Assembly (NCBI GenBank): GCA_012840395.1
Contig: DULL01000029.1
Location: forward strand, 1 to 59,755
DNA from: Clostridiaceae bacterium
Lineage (GTDB): Bacteria; Bacillota; Clostridia; Acetivibrionales; DULL01
Length of the DNA stretch: 59,755 nucleotides
Direction: 5' to 3'
A program made the translations under genes and the position numbers. Under the pieces are notes generated by a model that was not told the DNA's origin, ran no database searches, and saw only the letters and a program-made list of their open reading frames with translations. Positions 16,403 to 43,376 of this stretch are shown piece by piece. How positions within the stretch are numbered: the first letter of the stretch is position 1; each line of letters starts with the position of its first letter.

Positions 16403-16816
16403 ATGAATGGAAAGACTATTGTTATGGGTGTAATAGGTTCTGATGTACATGCTGTCGGGAACAAAATACTTGAGCTTTGTTTCAGACAGGCAGGTTTTAA
16501 TGTAGTAAACCTGGGAGTCATGGTTTCTCAGGAAGAATTTATAAAAGCAGCAATTGAGACAGCAGCAGATGCAATTATCGTATCATCTCTTTACGGTCAT
16601 GGAGAGATTGATTGCAGGGGATTAAGAGAAAAATGTGATGAAGCGGGTCTGGAGGGAATTCCTCTTTATGTTGGTGGCAATCTGGTAATAGGAAAGCAAC
16701 CTTTTGAAACTGTAGAAAAAAAATTCAAAGCAATGGGTTTCAATAGAGTGTATCCACCTGGAACCTCTCCTGAAATCAGTATCGCTGATCTGAAAAAAGA
16801 TTTGGGAGTTGCCTGA
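16403..16816 (+). CDS. mutS: Methylaspartate mutase small (B12-binding) subunit
   Basis: Sigma subunit (GlmS) of glutamate mutase, which with the epsilon subunit and adenosylcobalamin interconverts L-glutamate and threo-3-methylaspartate. The cobalamin motif D-x-H-x-x-G is present as D-V-H-A-V-G, with the later G-G-N-L segment. From ATG 16403 the length is 137 residues, typical. GGGGTGG precedes it. The stop codon is one base from the mutL start. This symbol is the methylaspartate mutase one, not DNA mismatch repair. Confidence 0.95.
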
Positions 16817-16817
16817 T

Positions 16818-18206
16818 ATGAAACCGATACTTTTAATCGACTTCGGCAGTACGTATACGAAAGTCACTTCTGTTGATGTACAATCGGAAAAAATACTGGG
16901 AACTGCAGAATCATTTACTACAGCCAGTTCAGATATAAGCCAGGGACTTGAAGCAGCTGTTCGCATATTGGAACAAAAAACCGGCAAGATAGAGTACGAA
17001 TACAAATTTGCCTGCAGTAGTGCTGCCGGTGGACTTAAAATGGTTACCATAGGCCTTGTTCCTGACCTTACTGCAGAAGCTGCAAGACGTGCCGCCCTAA
17101 GTGCAGGTGCGAAAGTAGCAGGTGTGTTTTCTTTTGAATTAGATCAGGAAGAATTGGATGAGATACAGGTAATTAAGCCAGATATAGTACTTCTAACAGG
17201 AGGAACAGACGGAGGGAACAAGAGCACCATACTGCATAATGCAGAAAAATTGTCTGTTGTAGAAGGAGATTTCGCCATAGTCGTAGCAGGTAATAAAAGC
17301 GTTGCTTCTAAAGTCAGGGATATACTGCTTTCATCAGGGAAAGAAGTCAGAGTCTGCCAGAATGTTATGCCTGAATTTGGGAAATTAAATATAGAGCCAG
17401 CCAGAGATGCTATAAGGGATTTATTTCTACAAAGGATTATTAAGGCAAAAGGTCTCACGAAAGTACAACAACTGATAGAAGGCATACTAATGCCAACTCC
17501 TTTGGCTGTGTTGAAGGCTGTTCATGTTTTATCCACCGGATATCACAATGAAGATGGATTAGGAGATATTCTTGCCGTTGATGTGGGCGGAGCTACAACA
17601 GACGTATATTCAATTTGTGATGGAAAACCTACACGGGCAGGCGTGGTGATGAAAGGACTTCCAGAACCTTTTGCAAAGAGGACTGTAGAGGGAGATCTTG
17701 GAGTAAGATATGGGTCTGCCAGTTTGACAGAGGTAGTTGGAATAGAAACTATCGCAGGGATATCAGGTCTAAGTGTAGAAGATACCCGATGTTGCCTGGA
17801 TGAAATAAATGCTAATCCCGGTTTACTGCCCGGGAATAATGAAAAACTTGCCAGATTAGATTTTGGATTATCCTCGTTGGCTATCAAAGAAGCCGTTAAC
17901 AGACATGCGGGATATATCCAGGAAATATACACCCCCATGGGGCTTTTATACACACAAACAGGAAAGGATCTTACTGATGTAAGGACGGTAATTGGTACCG
18001 GAGGAGTAATAATTAACAGCAAAAGACCTTTGGAAATTATGAAGAATGTCTTGTACGATCCTGATACGCCTGAAATATTAAAGCCCGTTAATGCTGATAT
18101 ATATATTGATGCCGGATACATACTTGCAGCCATGGGGATTTTGTCTGAGAGGTATCCTGAAATTGCCGTCAGAATTATTAAGAGAGAATTGGAGATGATT
18201 TCATGA
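16818..18206 (+). CDS. mutL: Glutamate mutase accessory protein MutL
   Basis: Actin/Hsp70-fold ATPase encoded between the two mutase subunits in fermenting clostridia, thought to reactivate or repair the B12 enzyme. ATP-fold motifs are [10 protein letters not shown] at the N terminus and [10 protein letters not shown] near the middle. ATG 16818 gives 462 residues. It overlaps mutE by four bases (ATGA). Not related to mismatch-repair MutL. Confidence 0.93.
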
Positions 18207-19654
18207 AAGTGGTTAATAAAAAGCTGGATGAGGAGATTTTTACCAAGCTGCGCCTGGAAGTACTGAACCAGTGGCCTACAGGCAGAGAAGTAAATTTTGA
18301 TGAAGCTGTAGAATACCATAAAAAAATTCCCCGTAAAAAAGTATTTGCCTACCGTTTAGAAAAAGCCAGAAAAAGCAGTGAAACTCTTATACAACCAAGG
18401 GCTGGTGTAGCATTAACCGATGAGCATATTGAACTCCTTAAATTCCTTGAAGAGCAGGGAGAAGCAGATTTATTACCTACAACCATAGACAGCTATACCA
18501 GGCAGAACAGATATGAAGAAGCAGAAAAAGGAATGGAAGAAAGCATGATAAAGGGAAGATCCCTTTTAAATGGATATCCTGCAGTCAACCAGGGTATAAA
18601 GAACTGCAGACGAATAAATGAATCAGTGAATCTGCCTGTCCAGGTTAGACATGGTACCCCTGATGCAAGACTGCTTGCGGAAATATCTATTGCCGGGGGT
18701 TTTACAGCCTTCGAAGGGGGCGGCATATCATATAATATTCCTTATGCTAAAAATGCATCTGTTGAAAAAACAATATACGACTGGCAGTATGTGGACAGAC
18801 TTGTAGGATTGTATGAAGAAGCAGGAGTATCAATCAACAGAGAACCTTTCGGCCCTTTAACAGGTACTTTGGTCCCGCCCTGTATCTCTCATGCGGTAGC
18901 GATTATAGAAAGCCTGTTGGCAGCAGAACAGGGTGTAAAAAGTATTACTGTCGGTTATGGACAATGTGGAAATCTGATACAGGATGTGGCGGCTGTAAAA
19001 ACATTAGAAAAACTCACAGAAGAATATTTGCATATGTTTGGCTACAAAAATGTAACAATAACCACTGTATTTCATCAATGGATGGGCGGATTCCCGCAGG
19101 ATGAGGCTAAAGCTTTCGGTGTTATTTCCTGGGGAGCCGCTGCGGCAGCATTATCAGGAGCTACTAAGGTTATTGTTAAGTCACCTCATGAAGCCTTGGG
19201 TATACCTACCAAGGAGGCAAATGCAGCAGGACTTAGGGCTACAAAACAGCTGATAACCATGCTGAGGGATCAGAAAATGCCTTTAACCAATGAATTAGAG
19301 AAAGAAATGGAGATAATAATTGAGGAAACCAGGTGCATATTAAACAGGGTATATGAACTTGGTGAGGGTGATATTGCCATCGGTACTGTAAGAGCTTTTG
19401 AAGCAGGGGTGATTGATGTGCCTTTTGCTCCAAGCAAGTATAATATGGGGAAAGTACTTCCCGCGAGAGACAACAACGGAGCTGTACGTCTTCTGGATTG
19501 TGGCAATATACCTTTCAGCAAAGACATTATCGACTTCCACAAGGCAAAAATAGAAGAAAGGGCAAAATATGAAAAAAGGGAAGTTAGCTTTCAGATGGTT
19601 ATAGATGATATATATGCTATTGGAAAAGGTTACCTGGTAGGCCGCCCCAGATAG
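18203..19654 (+). CDS. mutE: Methylaspartate mutase large (epsilon) subunit
   Basis: Catalytic TIM-barrel subunit (GlmE) of adenosylcobalamin-dependent glutamate mutase; 483 residues, as in the family. Characteristic stretches include V-R-H-G-T-P-D-A-R and [12 protein letters not shown], and [11 protein letters not shown] downstream. The start overlaps the mutL stop. It produces 3-methylaspartate for the lyase encoded after a 199-base repeat-filled gap. Confidence 0.95.
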
Positions 19655-19853: not shown

Positions 19854-21113
19854 ATGAAAATCGTTGATATAGTTTGTGCAAAAGGGCGTACAGGGTTTTT
19901 TTTCGACGATCAGAGAGCCATTAAAAAAGGTGCCATACCTGATGGAGAAACATATAAAGGAGAGCCGGTTACACCGGGATTTACAGCAGTAAGGCAAGCA
20001 GGTGAATCAATATCAGTTATGCTTGTTTTGGAAGATGGACAGATAGCTTACGGAGATTGTGCGGCAGTTCAATACTCAGGAGCAGGAGGAAGGGATCCGC
20101 TTTTTCTTGCAGAAGATTTTATTCCTGTTATTGAAAAATATGTAACTCCATGCTTGATAGGAAAAGAACTGGACAGCTTCAGGCAGCTTGCAGTAGAAGT
20201 GGACCAGATAGTAAATCCCGCTACAGGCAATAAACTTCATACCGCCATACGCTATGGCGTAACCCAGGCAGTACTGGATGCAGTAGCAAAGGCTCAAAGA
20301 AAGCTAATGACAGAGGTTGTCGCTTCAGAATACGGAACAGAGGTCTCTGACAGAGAGATACCAATTTTTACACAATCCGGCGATGAAAGGTATAATAATG
20401 TTGATAAGATGATTATCAAAGGTGCTCAGGTTCTTCCCCATGGATTAATTAACAATGTCTCAACAAAACTGGGTGAGAAGGGTGAACTTCTTTTAAAATA
20501 TGTTAAGTGGCTTAAAGACAGAATAATACAATTAAAGCCTTATGAGGATTATACTCCTGTAATTCATATAGATGTTTATGGAACAATCGGCATTGCATTC
20601 AATAATGATTACGATATGATGGAGAACTATCTTGCTGAACTGGGAAAAGTGGCTGCACCTTTTAAGCTGCGCATAGAAGGGCCTATTGATGTGGAAGAAC
20701 GTGAAGGCCAAATGCTTGCTCTTAAAGAATTAACAGAAAGAATAGATAAAAGAGGTATCAACGTACAGATTGTAGCAGATGAATGGTGCAACACTCTTGA
20801 AGATATCAAATATTTTGCGGATAACAGAGCAGGGCATATGATCCAGATTAAAACACCCGATCTTGGCGGTATTAATAATACTGTTGAAGCAGTGCTTTAC
20901 TGTAAGGAAAAAGGTGTAGGAGCTTATCAGGGAGGAACCTGCAATGAAACAGACCGCTCAGCACAGGTATGCGTACATCTTGCTATGGCCACAAAACCAG
21001 ATCAGATTCTTGCAAAACCTGGAATGGGTGTGGATGAAGGATTGATGATAGTTTATAATGAGATGCAAAGAATTCTTGCACTAAGGAATCGGATTAATCG
21101 GAATAAGGAGTGA
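19854..21113 (+). CDS. mal: Methylaspartate ammonia-lyase
   Basis: Enolase-superfamily enzyme that removes ammonia from threo-3-methylaspartate to give mesaconate. The 419-residue length is as expected. The catalytic lysine is in I-Q-I-K-T-P-D-L-G-G, and metal ligands are in the D-V-Y-G-T and E-G-P-I and D-E-W regions. AGGAGG precedes the ATG. With mutS-L-E it forms the first two steps of the methylaspartate route of glutamate fermentation. Confidence 0.96.
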   Translation: MKIVDIVCAKGRTGFFFDDQRAIKKGAIPDGETYKGEPVTPGFTAVRQAGESISVMLVLEDGQIAYGDCAAVQYSGAGGRDPLFLAEDFIPVIEKYVTPCLIGKELDSFRQLAVEVDQIVNPATGNKLHTAIRYGVTQAVLDAVAKAQRKLMTEVVASEYGTEVSDREIPIFTQSGDERYNNVDKMIIKGAQVLPHGLINNVSTKLGEKGELLLKYVKWLKDRIIQLKPYEDYTPVIHIDVYGTIGIAFNNDYDMMENYLAELGKVAAPFKLRIEGPIDVEEREGQMLALKELTERIDKRGINVQIVADEWCNTLEDIKYFADNRAGHMIQIKTPDLGGINNTVEAVLYCKEKGVGAYQGGTCNETDRSAQVCVHLAMATKPDQILAKPGMGVDEGLMIVYNEMQRILALRNRINRNKE

Positions 21114-21120
21114 TTGATAA

Positions 21121-22491
21121 ATGGAAGAGTTAAAGGTTTTATCCCCAACAGGTATACTGGGTTATGGATTTCCTATGGCATCCTTTGAAAAGGGAATGGA
21201 GAAACATCCCGATGTTATAGCCGTAGATGCGGGGTCAACTGATCCCGGGCCATATTATTTAGGCGCAGGCGTATCTTTTACCGACAGAAATGCAGTAAAG
21301 AGGGATCTTGAAATATTAATTCCCGCAGCAATTGAAGAAGATATTCCCCTGATAATAGGTTCTGCAGGGGGAAGCGGCGGTAACCCACACTTGGAATGGA
21401 ATCTTGAAATTATAAAGGAAATTGCTGAAGAAAAAGGATTAAGCTTTAAATTAGCAGTTATCAGAGCAGAGATTGATAAGGGATATGTAGTTGAAATGTT
21501 AAGAAAAGGGAAAGTTACTCCTTTGCATCCTGCACCGGACATCACCGAAGATGAGCTTGAGAAAACCACCAGAATTGTTGGACAGATGGGCTTGGAGCCT
21601 ATTGTGAAAGCACTGGATGAAAGCGCCCGGGTCATACTTGCAGGCAGGGCATATGATCCCTCAGTGTTTGCTGCTATGGCGGTAAAAAGAGGATATGATA
21701 AAGGTTTGGCTTTACATATGGGAAAAATTCTTGAATGTGCCTGTATCGCAGCTGTACCTGGCAGCGGGAGTGACTGCATGATTGGGTATCTTGGAAAGGA
21801 CTATTTTATTGTGGAACCTCTTAATCCTGCAAGAAAATGTACCACTCTTTCTGTTGCAGCCCACACGCTGTATGAAAAAACAAATCCTTATATTCTGCCA
21901 GGCCCTGGAGGAGTTCTGGATTTAACCAATACAAAGTTTGAACAATATACAGATAATGCTGTCAAAGTTTCAGGAAGCAGATTTATTCCTTCTGAAAGCT
22001 ACACTATAAAACTTGAAGGAGTAAAGAAAACCGGCTACAGGACGGTATCAATTGCAGGGACTAGAGACCCTATAGCCATAAGTAAAATTGATGATATAAT
22101 TTCTGGAGTAAAAGAAAGAGTCGACGATAATTTCAAAGATGCTAAATTTGAATATTTCCTGGATTTCAAAGTGTACGGGAAATCAGGAGTTATGGGTGCT
22201 TTAGAGCCTGAAGAGAAGGTAGCAGGTCATGAACTAGGAATTATTATTGAAGCTGTAGCCGAGAGCCAGGAAATTGCCAATACAATATGCAGTTTTGCCC
22301 GTTCCACCATGCTGCACTATGGATATGAAGGCAGGATATCAACGGCAGGCAATCTGGCATTTCCATATTCACCTTCAGATTTTAAGGCTGGAGAAGTGTA
22401 TGTATTTAATGTATATCACATTGTTCAGGTGGAGGACCCCTGTGAACTGTTCCCTATGGAGATTATTGAGATGGGAGGCGGAAAAAGGTGA
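21121..22491 (+). CDS. AtuA-family (DUF1446-like) protein
   Basis: A 456-residue cytoplasmic protein that I recognise as AtuA-like by the N-terminal V-D-A-G-S-T-D-P-G-P-Y-Y-L-G-A-G stretch, G-S-A-G-G-S-G-G and A-G-R-A-Y-D-P. AtuA is known from acyclic terpene degradation clusters, where its reaction is not settled to my knowledge. Here it starts seven bases after mal and overlaps the DUF4387 gene by four bases. Because no mesaconase or citramalate lyase gene is in the operon, it may act on mesaconate or citramalate; this is inference. Confidence 0.8.
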   Translation: MEELKVLSPTGILGYGFPMASFEKGMEKHPDVIAVDAGSTDPGPYYLGAGVSFTDRNAVKRDLEILIPAAIEEDIPLIIGSAGGSGGNPHLEWNLEIIKEIAEEKGLSFKLAVIRAEIDKGYVVEMLRKGKVTPLHPAPDITEDELEKTTRIVGQMGLEPIVKALDESARVILAGRAYDPSVFAAMAVKRGYDKGLALHMGKILECACIAAVPGSGSDCMIGYLGKDYFIVEPLNPARKCTTLSVAAHTLYEKTNPYILPGPGGVLDLTNTKFEQYTDNAVKVSGSRFIPSESYTIKLEGVKKTGYRTVSIAGTRDPIAISKIDDIISGVKERVDDNFKDAKFEYFLDFKVYGKSGVMGALEPEEKVAGHELGIIIEAVAESQEIANTICSFARSTMLHYGYEGRISTAGNLAFPYSPSDFKAGEVYVFNVYHIVQVEDPCELFPMEIIEMGGGKR

Positions 22492-22805
22492 AAGTAAGGC
22501 TGATTGACATTGCAGAGGTTATACGAAGTAAAAATTCCGGCCCTTATGAACTTACATTTGATATAATATTTAAAGATTGGGATATGTTTTATAAAGTATG
22601 TAATGCAAAGGCAATTAATAAAAAATTAATAAGCGGCTTATACGGAATATCTGAAGAACAGGTTATAAACATAATTGAATTTATACCTGCGAAAGCCATA
22701 AAAGCTACTATTGTCAGGCCTATTGCTTCCGGAGAGCTGGGAGAAACCGATGTTTACGGTGCACAGCAACATGCTCCTTTATTAAACCTTGTACTGGAAG
22801 TATAA
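22488..22805 (+). CDS. DUF4387-domain protein
   Basis: A 105-residue protein starting at GTG inside the end of the AtuA gene (GTGA overlap), hence translationally coupled. The family-like stretches are S-K-N-S-G-P-Y-E-L-T-F-D and the C-terminal G-E-T-D-V-Y-G-A-Q-Q-H-A-P-L-L. No transmembrane segment or signal peptide. Probable stable partner or subunit of the AtuA-like protein; function unknown. Confidence 0.8.
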   Translation: MKVRLIDIAEVIRSKNSGPYELTFDIIFKDWDMFYKVCNAKAINKKLISGLYGISEEQVINIIEFIPAKAIKATIVRPIASGELGETDVYGAQQHAPLLNLVLEV

Positions 22806-23055: not shown

Positions 23056-24015
23056 ATGTCGGCTACTCCTATACATGAAACACTTATGTACGCTGTATAT
23101 TTTGCTCCAAGAGGGAAAAAGCGGCTTTTGGGGTTAGGAAACCAGCTTGCTCAGAGGCATCTAAGTGCTTTGGATAAGCTTATAGGATTCATAGGAGATG
23201 CGGGAGCAGGAAAATCGCTTTTAATAAAGGGTATGTTTCCCGGACTGGAGCTTACCAACGACGATGAAGGAATAAATGTACGGCCTCTTCCTCTGCTGAA
23301 GAATTTAGACAAGGGTTTTTTCAGCAGCCATACTTATCATGTGGATGTAAGATTTGAATCTGCTTTTACACAAATGCATGTTCTGGTTGATGCTATTAAA
23401 AGGGCTATAGAACAAGATAAAAGGGTTATAGTTGAGCATTTTGATATAATTTACCCCCATCTTGGGCTTAATGCGGAAGTGCTTATAGGTATAGGAGAAG
23501 AAGTAATTGTAACAAGGCCGAATATTTTTGGTCCTCAACCAAAAGATATCGCCGACATTGTTTATAAATCCATAAAGTACAGAAGAATGGCTCATACTGC
23601 TGAAGACCTTACATGCAAGATACTGGAAGAAAAATTTGGATTCCCTCACGCACAGAACCATAGTGATGTAAAGCATGGTTTTGTACTGGAATTCAGTGAA
23701 AAGCCTGAAATAGATCTTGAACTGTTGGAGAGACTGGTGAAAAAATATATAGAAGATGAAGTTGACATAAGTTTTATGGATGAGAATCATATACGGATAG
23801 GAGAGAATGAGAAATTCCACTGTACCGGTCCTCGTATTCATGTAAGGAATACAGGAGAAATAATAAACTTCAGGTTATTGAAAGAGTTCAAGTATGATCC
23901 CATATCCAGACAATATGCCCTTGTGGGGCTTGTTGGCAGCGAAAAAAGCGTGGATATAGGAGATTTAAATAAGATAGTGCTATTAAGCGCTATGAGGAAG
24001 TGCAATAAGATATAA
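23056..24015 (+). CDS. P-loop protein fused to AlaRS/AlaX-like second additional domain
   Basis: A 319-residue protein with two parts. Residues about 40-160 hold a Walker A motif G-D-A-G-A-G-K-S (47-54). Residues about 178-275 resemble the alanyl-tRNA synthetase second additional (editing) domain: H-T-A-E-D at 180-184 in place of HxxxH, F-P-H-A-Q-N-H, then C-T-G-P-R-I-H-V-R-N-T-G-E-I from 256, echoing the CGGTHVxNTGEI motif. Metal ligands are partly altered. There is no aminoacylation core. It follows the methylaspartate genes after 250 bases and precedes a tRNA cluster. Role unknown. Confidence 0.7.
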   Translation: MSATPIHETLMYAVYFAPRGKKRLLGLGNQLAQRHLSALDKLIGFIGDAGAGKSLLIKGMFPGLELTNDDEGINVRPLPLLKNLDKGFFSSHTYHVDVRFESAFTQMHVLVDAIKRAIEQDKRVIVEHFDIIYPHLGLNAEVLIGIGEEVIVTRPNIFGPQPKDIADIVYKSIKYRRMAHTAEDLTCKILEEKFGFPHAQNHSDVKHGFVLEFSEKPEIDLELLERLVKKYIEDEVDISFMDENHIRIGENEKFHCTGPRIHVRNTGEIINFRLLKEFKYDPISRQYALVGLVGSEKSVDIGDLNKIVLLSAMRKCNKI

Positions 24016-42919: not shown

Positions 42920-43376
42920 AACCAAATCAACTGAAGAAACAAAAGAAACAGGATATAAATTAGGGAAACTGTTACATAAAGGTGATATTGTCTGCATTTC
43001 AGGAGAACTTGGAGTGGGCAAGACAATATTTTCAGGAGGAATTGCCCTCGGCCTGGGAGTGAAAGGCTATATAACCAGTCCCACTTTTACCATTGTAAAT
43101 GAATATTATGACGGTAGAGTGCCTTTATATCATTTTGATGTATACAGAATAGGTTCCACTGATGAAATGTACGAAATCGGTTTTGAAGAGTATCTTGATG
43201 GCGATGGCGTTGTTATTATTGAATGGGCGGAATTGATAGAAAATATTTTGCCTGACCAATATATCCGCGTTACAATTGAAAGAGACAAGGATAATCAGCA
43301 GGATGGACGGTGGATAAAGATTGATTTTATAGGTTCAAGGTACGAGGACTATCATAACAAACTTTTAGCGGAATGA
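42906..43376 (+). CDS. tsaE: tRNA threonylcarbamoyladenosine ATPase TsaE
   Basis: ATPase required with TsaB and TsaD for t6A37 formation on ANN-reading tRNAs. Walker A G-E-L-G-V-G-K-T, the T-S-P-T-F-T-I-V-N-E-Y stretch and the I-I-E-W-A-E motif are all typical. ATG 42906 gives 156 residues. Overlaps the amidohydrolase end and precedes tsaB. Confidence 0.94.
   Translation: MKQIKTKSTEETKETGYKLGKLLHKGDIVCISGELGVGKTIFSGGIALGLGVKGYITSPTFTIVNEYYDGRVPLYHFDVYRIGSTDEMYEIGFEEYLDGDGVVIIEWAELIENILPDQYIRVTIERDKDNQQDGRWIKIDFIGSRYEDYHNKLLAE

Follow-up and report, generated by a model that had tools for sequence, protein, structure and literature searches.

Gene X and its operon

The question raised by this locus is what the protein encoded by the last gene of its glutamate mutase operon, here called X, does for the cell. 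The window (the whole stretch of DNA analysed, 59,755 nucleotides) harbours the cluster mutS-mutL-mutE-mal-AtuA-DUF4387, closed by X 250 bp past the DUF4387 gene. The following genes are relevant to the question:

16412..16807, + strand: mutS (glmS), B12-binding subunit of glutamate mutase (TIGR01501, E 9.6e-64)
16809..18206, + strand: mutL (glmL), accessory protein (NCBIfam NF040745, E 7.8e-189)
18203..19654, + strand: mutE (glmE), substrate-binding subunit (TIGR01503, E 2.5e-237)
19854..21113, + strand: mal, methylaspartate ammonia-lyase (TIGR01502, E 1.2e-180)
21121..22491, + strand: AtuA-family gene, usual operon partner (PF07287, E 3.1e-23; conserved order)
22488..22805, + strand: DUF4387 gene, usual upstream neighbour of X (PF14330, E 5.9e-39; conserved order)
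23056..24015, + strand: X, TsaE-like ATPase plus SAD protein (ORF; AlphaFold2 model with pLDDT 86; homologues 44-78% identical)
42930-43298: canonical tsaE, separate from X

The MutE of the window was aligned to PDB 6h9e_B over residues 1-482. X encodes 319 amino acids, starts with ATG and is preceded by a GGGGGA purine run; it is confirmed as a real and highly conserved gene. The search for promoters and terminators around X gave no excess over chance.

X is usually the end of an operon with the gene order of the window, and it occupies the last position of glm operons in Clostridia, Halanaerobiales, Rhodocyclaceae, Acidobacteria/Aminicenantes, Spirochaetes and Prevotella, among others. Upstream of X there is usually DUF4387, or the class I fumarase genes fumAB, which probably encode mesaconase. 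The genes rph-rdgB directly follow X in 26 of the 30 best-scoring loci and are very frequent there in Bacillota, whereas outside Bacillota X is located in glm operons without rph. In Peptoclostridium acidaminophilum (L117:9983-10948) X is flanked by citC and by citX, and it overlaps the latter. This species and Prevotella nigrescens carry X and the glm genes on large plasmids, and RefSeq names both X proteins "hypothetical protein". The AtuA-family and DUF4387 genes (21121-22805 in the window) are near-constant in glm operons. The literature search returned no paper on DUF4387, none on the X family, and nothing relevant that connects glutamate mutase, methylaspartate or RNase PH to a SAD domain or to TsaE. 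The sequence-only reading had treated the tRNA-Asp gene beside X as meaningful; no tRNA-Asp was detected in any of the 45 homologous X loci scanned, and this adjacency, peculiar to the window, was rejected as a functional clue.

Fold of the two halves

X is composed of two domains, with these features:

23077..23538, + strand: N-terminal domain, residues 8-161, TsaE/YjeE fold (structure comparison; Pfam TsaE in 25 of 31 homologues), with Walker A, HxDxR (95-99) and VxE127H128
23194..23217, + strand: Walker A, residues 47-54, GDAGAGKS (K53 and S54 in 84/84 homologues)
23566..23940, + strand: C-terminal SAD domain, residues 171-295 (Z 11.7-13.6 to ThrRS, AlaX and AlaRS; hhalign)
23593..23607, + strand: HTAED, residues 180-184, in the place of HxxxH (aligned with ThrRS HTTSH)
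23821..23841, + strand: CTGPRIH, residues 256-262, corresponding to CxGPH of ThrRS but longer by an insertion of two residues (aligned with ThrRS CAGPH)

The Walker A residues are G47-DAGAG-K53-S54, and the C-terminal motifs are H180-TAE-D184, followed by C256-TGPRIHVRNTGEI. Pfam searches with X gave weak matches to tRNA_SAD (E 0.016, 15.6 bits, under the cut-off of 24) and to TsaE (E 0.016), and the TIGR00150 model of TsaE scored 12.9 bits, far under its curated cut-off of 60.1. At E up to 0.1, 22 of the 31 homologues matched tRNA_SAD, with a best E of 3.7e-4, and 25 matched TsaE, with a best E of 7.9e-5. Searches of PDB sequences with X or its profile retrieved P-loop matches only, with no SAD among the 60 matches listed. 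Alignment of profiles with hhalign paired X with the ThrRS of its own genome (pairwise E 2.4e-5, probability 51%), and more weakly with the AlaRS (E 0.0012, probability 8%). The pairs with ThrRS are HTAED/HTTSH, HGFVLEF/NGFYYDF and CTGPRIHVRNTGEI/CAGP--HLTSTGHV.

The identity of the C-terminal half, weak by sequence, is settled by the predicted structure. The AlphaFold2 model, for which 31 homologues were used, has pLDDT 86 and pTM 0.81; at E<0.001 Foldseek matched it to chains of TsaE, to two entries for AlaX and to one for NSF. Using VIA-align, residues ~171-295 of the model matched ThrRS, AlaX and AlaRS with Z 11.7-13.6 over about 120-136 residues, and residues ~8-161 matched TsaE/YjeE (5np9, 6n9a, 1htw and others) with Z 9.2-10.7; unrelated P-loop proteins came next in the list, with Z 8.2 or lower. 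The sequence-only reading had placed a Walker A at residues 47-54, as found here, and an AlaRS/AlaX-like SAD domain in the C-terminal half, and it had proposed a structure prediction as the check; in the model this half does fold like a SAD domain. Its description of an NTPase fused to an editing-type domain also stands for both the P-loop and the SAD half, with the correction that the NTPase half is TsaE-like.

X shares with the N2 editing domain of ThrRS and with ThrRS-ed the fold (1qf6_A, Z 13.6), the CxGP..H, the TG-I stretch, the HT..(H/D) start and the GF..(D/E)F strand. Unlike these domains, X has Asp for the second His and a two-residue insertion in CxGP[RI]H, is about 25 residues shorter, and is joined to an ATPase. 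Similarly, X has the fold of AlaX (AlaX-S 1v4p/1wnu and AlaX-M 2e1b/9iuw, Z 12.8-13.4), and both stand outside any synthetase, but X possesses HxxED for HxxxH, CxxxxxH for CxxxH, and a TsaE-like domain ahead of the SAD. Residues 8-161 share with TsaE/YjeE, the ATPase of tRNA t6A synthesis, the fold and the Walker A, HxDxR and VxE positions; X differs in the added SAD domain and in its score far under the TsaE cut-off. X as a replacement of TsaE was rejected, with the canonical tsaE present in the same window.

Conservation of the site

Conservation was counted in 84 X sequences, 83 of which cover H180-D184 and 82 C256-H262. In the ATPase half, K53, S54, D97 and E127 are present in all 84. In the SAD half, H180 and E183 occur in 83/83 sequences, D184 in 82/83, C256 in 82/82, and R260 and H262 each in 81/82. 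The domain and motif pattern is therefore beyond chance. The metal/catalytic motif HxxxH plus CxxxH is replaced in X by an almost invariant HxxED plus CxxxxxH, so that the editing site, which the sequence-only reading had called degenerate, is nothing of the kind; judged from the alignment, HxxED/CxGxRxH is the conserved site of the X family itself. At the locus L101:6174-8089 (G176) X is present as a tandem duplicate, with CGGPKIH replacing CTGPRIH in one copy.

Co-occurrence with glutamate mutase

Among 398 genomes of the phylum, X was found in 73 and mutE in 86. Both were present in 71 genomes, a count that includes divergent mutE homologues under the family cut-off. Thus 71 of the 73 X genomes have mutE or a mutE homologue (Fisher p 9e-61, at genus level 2e-40, values that kinship makes optimistic), and most mutE-less genomes of the sample also lack X. 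Two X genomes lack mutE: G064, whose X is fragmented, and G319, which is 63% complete. Contigs of a genome collection led to 26 further X genomes from Bacillota, Proteobacteria, Acidobacteria/Aminicenantes and Spirochaetes, and mutE was present in 25 of them. X and mutE also occur together in G209 and G214, where they are far apart. The association of X homologues with methylaspartate genes anticipated from the sequence is thus found, across several phyla.

Ten genomes possess mutE and mal without X (G083, G138, G192, G260, G272, G286, G339, G343, G356 and G420). Of these, G343 is only 61% complete, and G138 and G356 have a mal gene broken in two. In G138 (L104:12365-16540) two near-identical two-gene insertions, resembling a transposase/ATPase pair, split mal.

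Lineages without the methylaspartate pathway

Eight X genomes have neither mal nor a mutS above the family cut-off, six in lineage f50 (G080, G124, G163, G302, G326 and G350) and two in lineage f61 (G092 and G134), and mutL is absent from all eight. The third f61 genome, G170, has no true mutS, a weak sub-cut-off match to mutL, and mal on another contig. A factor specific for 3-methylaspartate is expected to be absent where mutS and mal are missing, but X is present in these eight genomes, and the checked residues of its site are intact in f50 and f61. In the MutE-like proteins of f50 the substrate residues R149, E171, Y177 and Y181 are gone, as is R66 in most of them (6h9e_B numbering). The dN values between G080 and G124 are 0.074 (X), 0.076 (rph) and 0.295 (MutE-like gene), a comparison made on dN only, with synonymous sites near saturation. 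X in f50 is under strong purifying selection and evolves as slowly as RNase PH. Therefore, X has a selected role in these lineages that does without 3-methylaspartate.

In f34/f94, X decays together with MutE; it is drifting in G111, truncated in G150 and in pieces in G064. In the X tree, made with a quick method, with long branches for L098 and L118 and used for this statement only, the sequences of f50, f61 and f34 do not form one clade (three label changes, at least two of them forced by well-supported branches).

Seven loci (L096, L097, L100, L106, L107, L109 and L110) encode mutE homologues without a true mutS, next to the gene of a GntR regulator or to one resembling murI and upstream of rph-rdgB; genes for HGD-D, a BadF-type activase and MBL sometimes accompany them. 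Some of these homologues retain few or none of the substrate residues, and the MutE barrel may have acquired a new use here.

Possible function of X

We tentatively predict, at somewhat less than an even chance, that X is a free-standing ATP-gated aminoacyl-tRNA deacylase, i.e. a trans-editing factor. A tRNA-directed hydrolase with nucleotide control is favoured because of the fold, the conservation of the site, the absence of another free-standing SAD protein in this genome (its SAD proteins are X, ThrRS and AlaRS only), and the linkage in 26 of 30 loci to rph, whose product RNase PH, acting in tRNA 3' maturation, provides a tRNA-related context; the linkage could be an inherited position rather than function. 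CtdA, taken up below, is a precedent for a trans-editing factor of this sort next to a catabolic operon (PMC10018355). The SAD half would bind a metal and cleave the ester bond of a mischarged acidic amino acid, whose side-chain carboxylate might be read by R260, a nearly invariant residue. ATP binding or hydrolysis by the TsaE-like half would gate access or reset the enzyme, by analogy with TsaE and its partners. The chemistry may have changed, since HxxxH is now HxxED and the CxxxH loop is two residues longer. 3-Methylaspartate on tRNA-Asp may be one natural substrate in glutamate fermenters; however, because X is kept where 3-methylaspartate should not be made, its substrate range would be wider or different, and clearing 3-methylaspartate is probably not its whole job. 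No fusion of an ATPase with an editing domain was found in the literature searched. A doubtful proposition is that X represents the first aminoacyl-tRNA editing enzyme powered by ATP, combining TsaE with a ThrRS-type SAD whose HxxED/CxGxRxH site serves acidic amino-acid analogues, and tied to glutamate mutase and tRNA maturation.

The narrower proposal that X specifically clears 3-methylaspartyl-tRNA(Asp), and so shields cells making 3-methylaspartate, is quite unlikely in view of f50 and f61, which lack mutS and mutL (and have mal only in G170) and retain an intact X site, with the dN of X in f50 equal to that of rph. Ten genomes with mutE and mal do without X, and the adjacency of tRNA-Asp is not conserved. 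The proposal does agree with the position of X at the end of glm operons in Clostridia and the other groups listed above, and with R260, which could read an acidic side chain. It also has a parallel in CtdA, a free-standing editing protein of experimentally demonstrated activity that clears canavanyl-tRNA(Arg) and adjoins a catabolic operon, and whose example indicates that editing-type proteins do travel with such operons (PMC10018355). CtdA resembles X in its genomic logic, as an editing protein outside any synthetase next to an operon that breaks down a mischargeable amino acid; unlike X, it has a B3/4 (PheRS-type) domain and no ATPase (PMC10018355). Of the proofreading factor for 3-methylaspartate suggested by the sequence-only reading, the SAD fold and the association with methylaspartate genes hold, and the specificity does not, given f50/f61 and the ten genomes without X.

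A serious rival, although an unlikely one, gives X an ATP-driven role in the assistance or maturation of MutE or of the later enzymes, mesaconase or citramalate lyase; the SAD would have been re-used to bind a metal or a protein. This role agrees with the action of TsaE on partners of the ASKHA fold, to which MutL and the BadF-type activases belong, and with the fact that mutE or its homologue is the tightest genome-level partner of X. The order citC-X-citX in P. acidaminophilum suits maturation and counts against editing, and the joint decay of X and MutE in f34/f94 (G111, G150 and G064) points the same way. Nevertheless, X persists in f50 and f61, which have no MutS and no true MutL, the MutE-like proteins of f50 have lost their substrate residues, G083 and G356 have the operon but no X, and a maturation factor would not need such conservation of the SAD catalytic positions. 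The least probable reading makes X a housekeeping enzyme of tRNA or nucleotides (processing, modification or sensing) acting with RNase PH and RdgB, its link to glutamate mutase reflecting old gene order and co-transfer. It would account for the order X-rph-rdgB in most Clostridia loci and for the rate of X in f50, which is that of rph, but not for X in glm operons without rph outside Bacillota, for a co-occurrence with mutE that is near complete even at a distance (G209 and G214), or for the lack of X in most mutE-less genomes of the sample.

The lineages f50 and f61 offer a ready test between the editing and the maturation readings. X is a nameless gene in most of the glutamate-mutase genomes sampled in the phylum, and in many beyond. 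If X edits tRNA, nucleotide control would join proofreading, and the family would show how amino-acid fermenters exclude analogues from their proteins. Otherwise, X would exemplify the conversion of an editing fold to a role in enzyme maturation.
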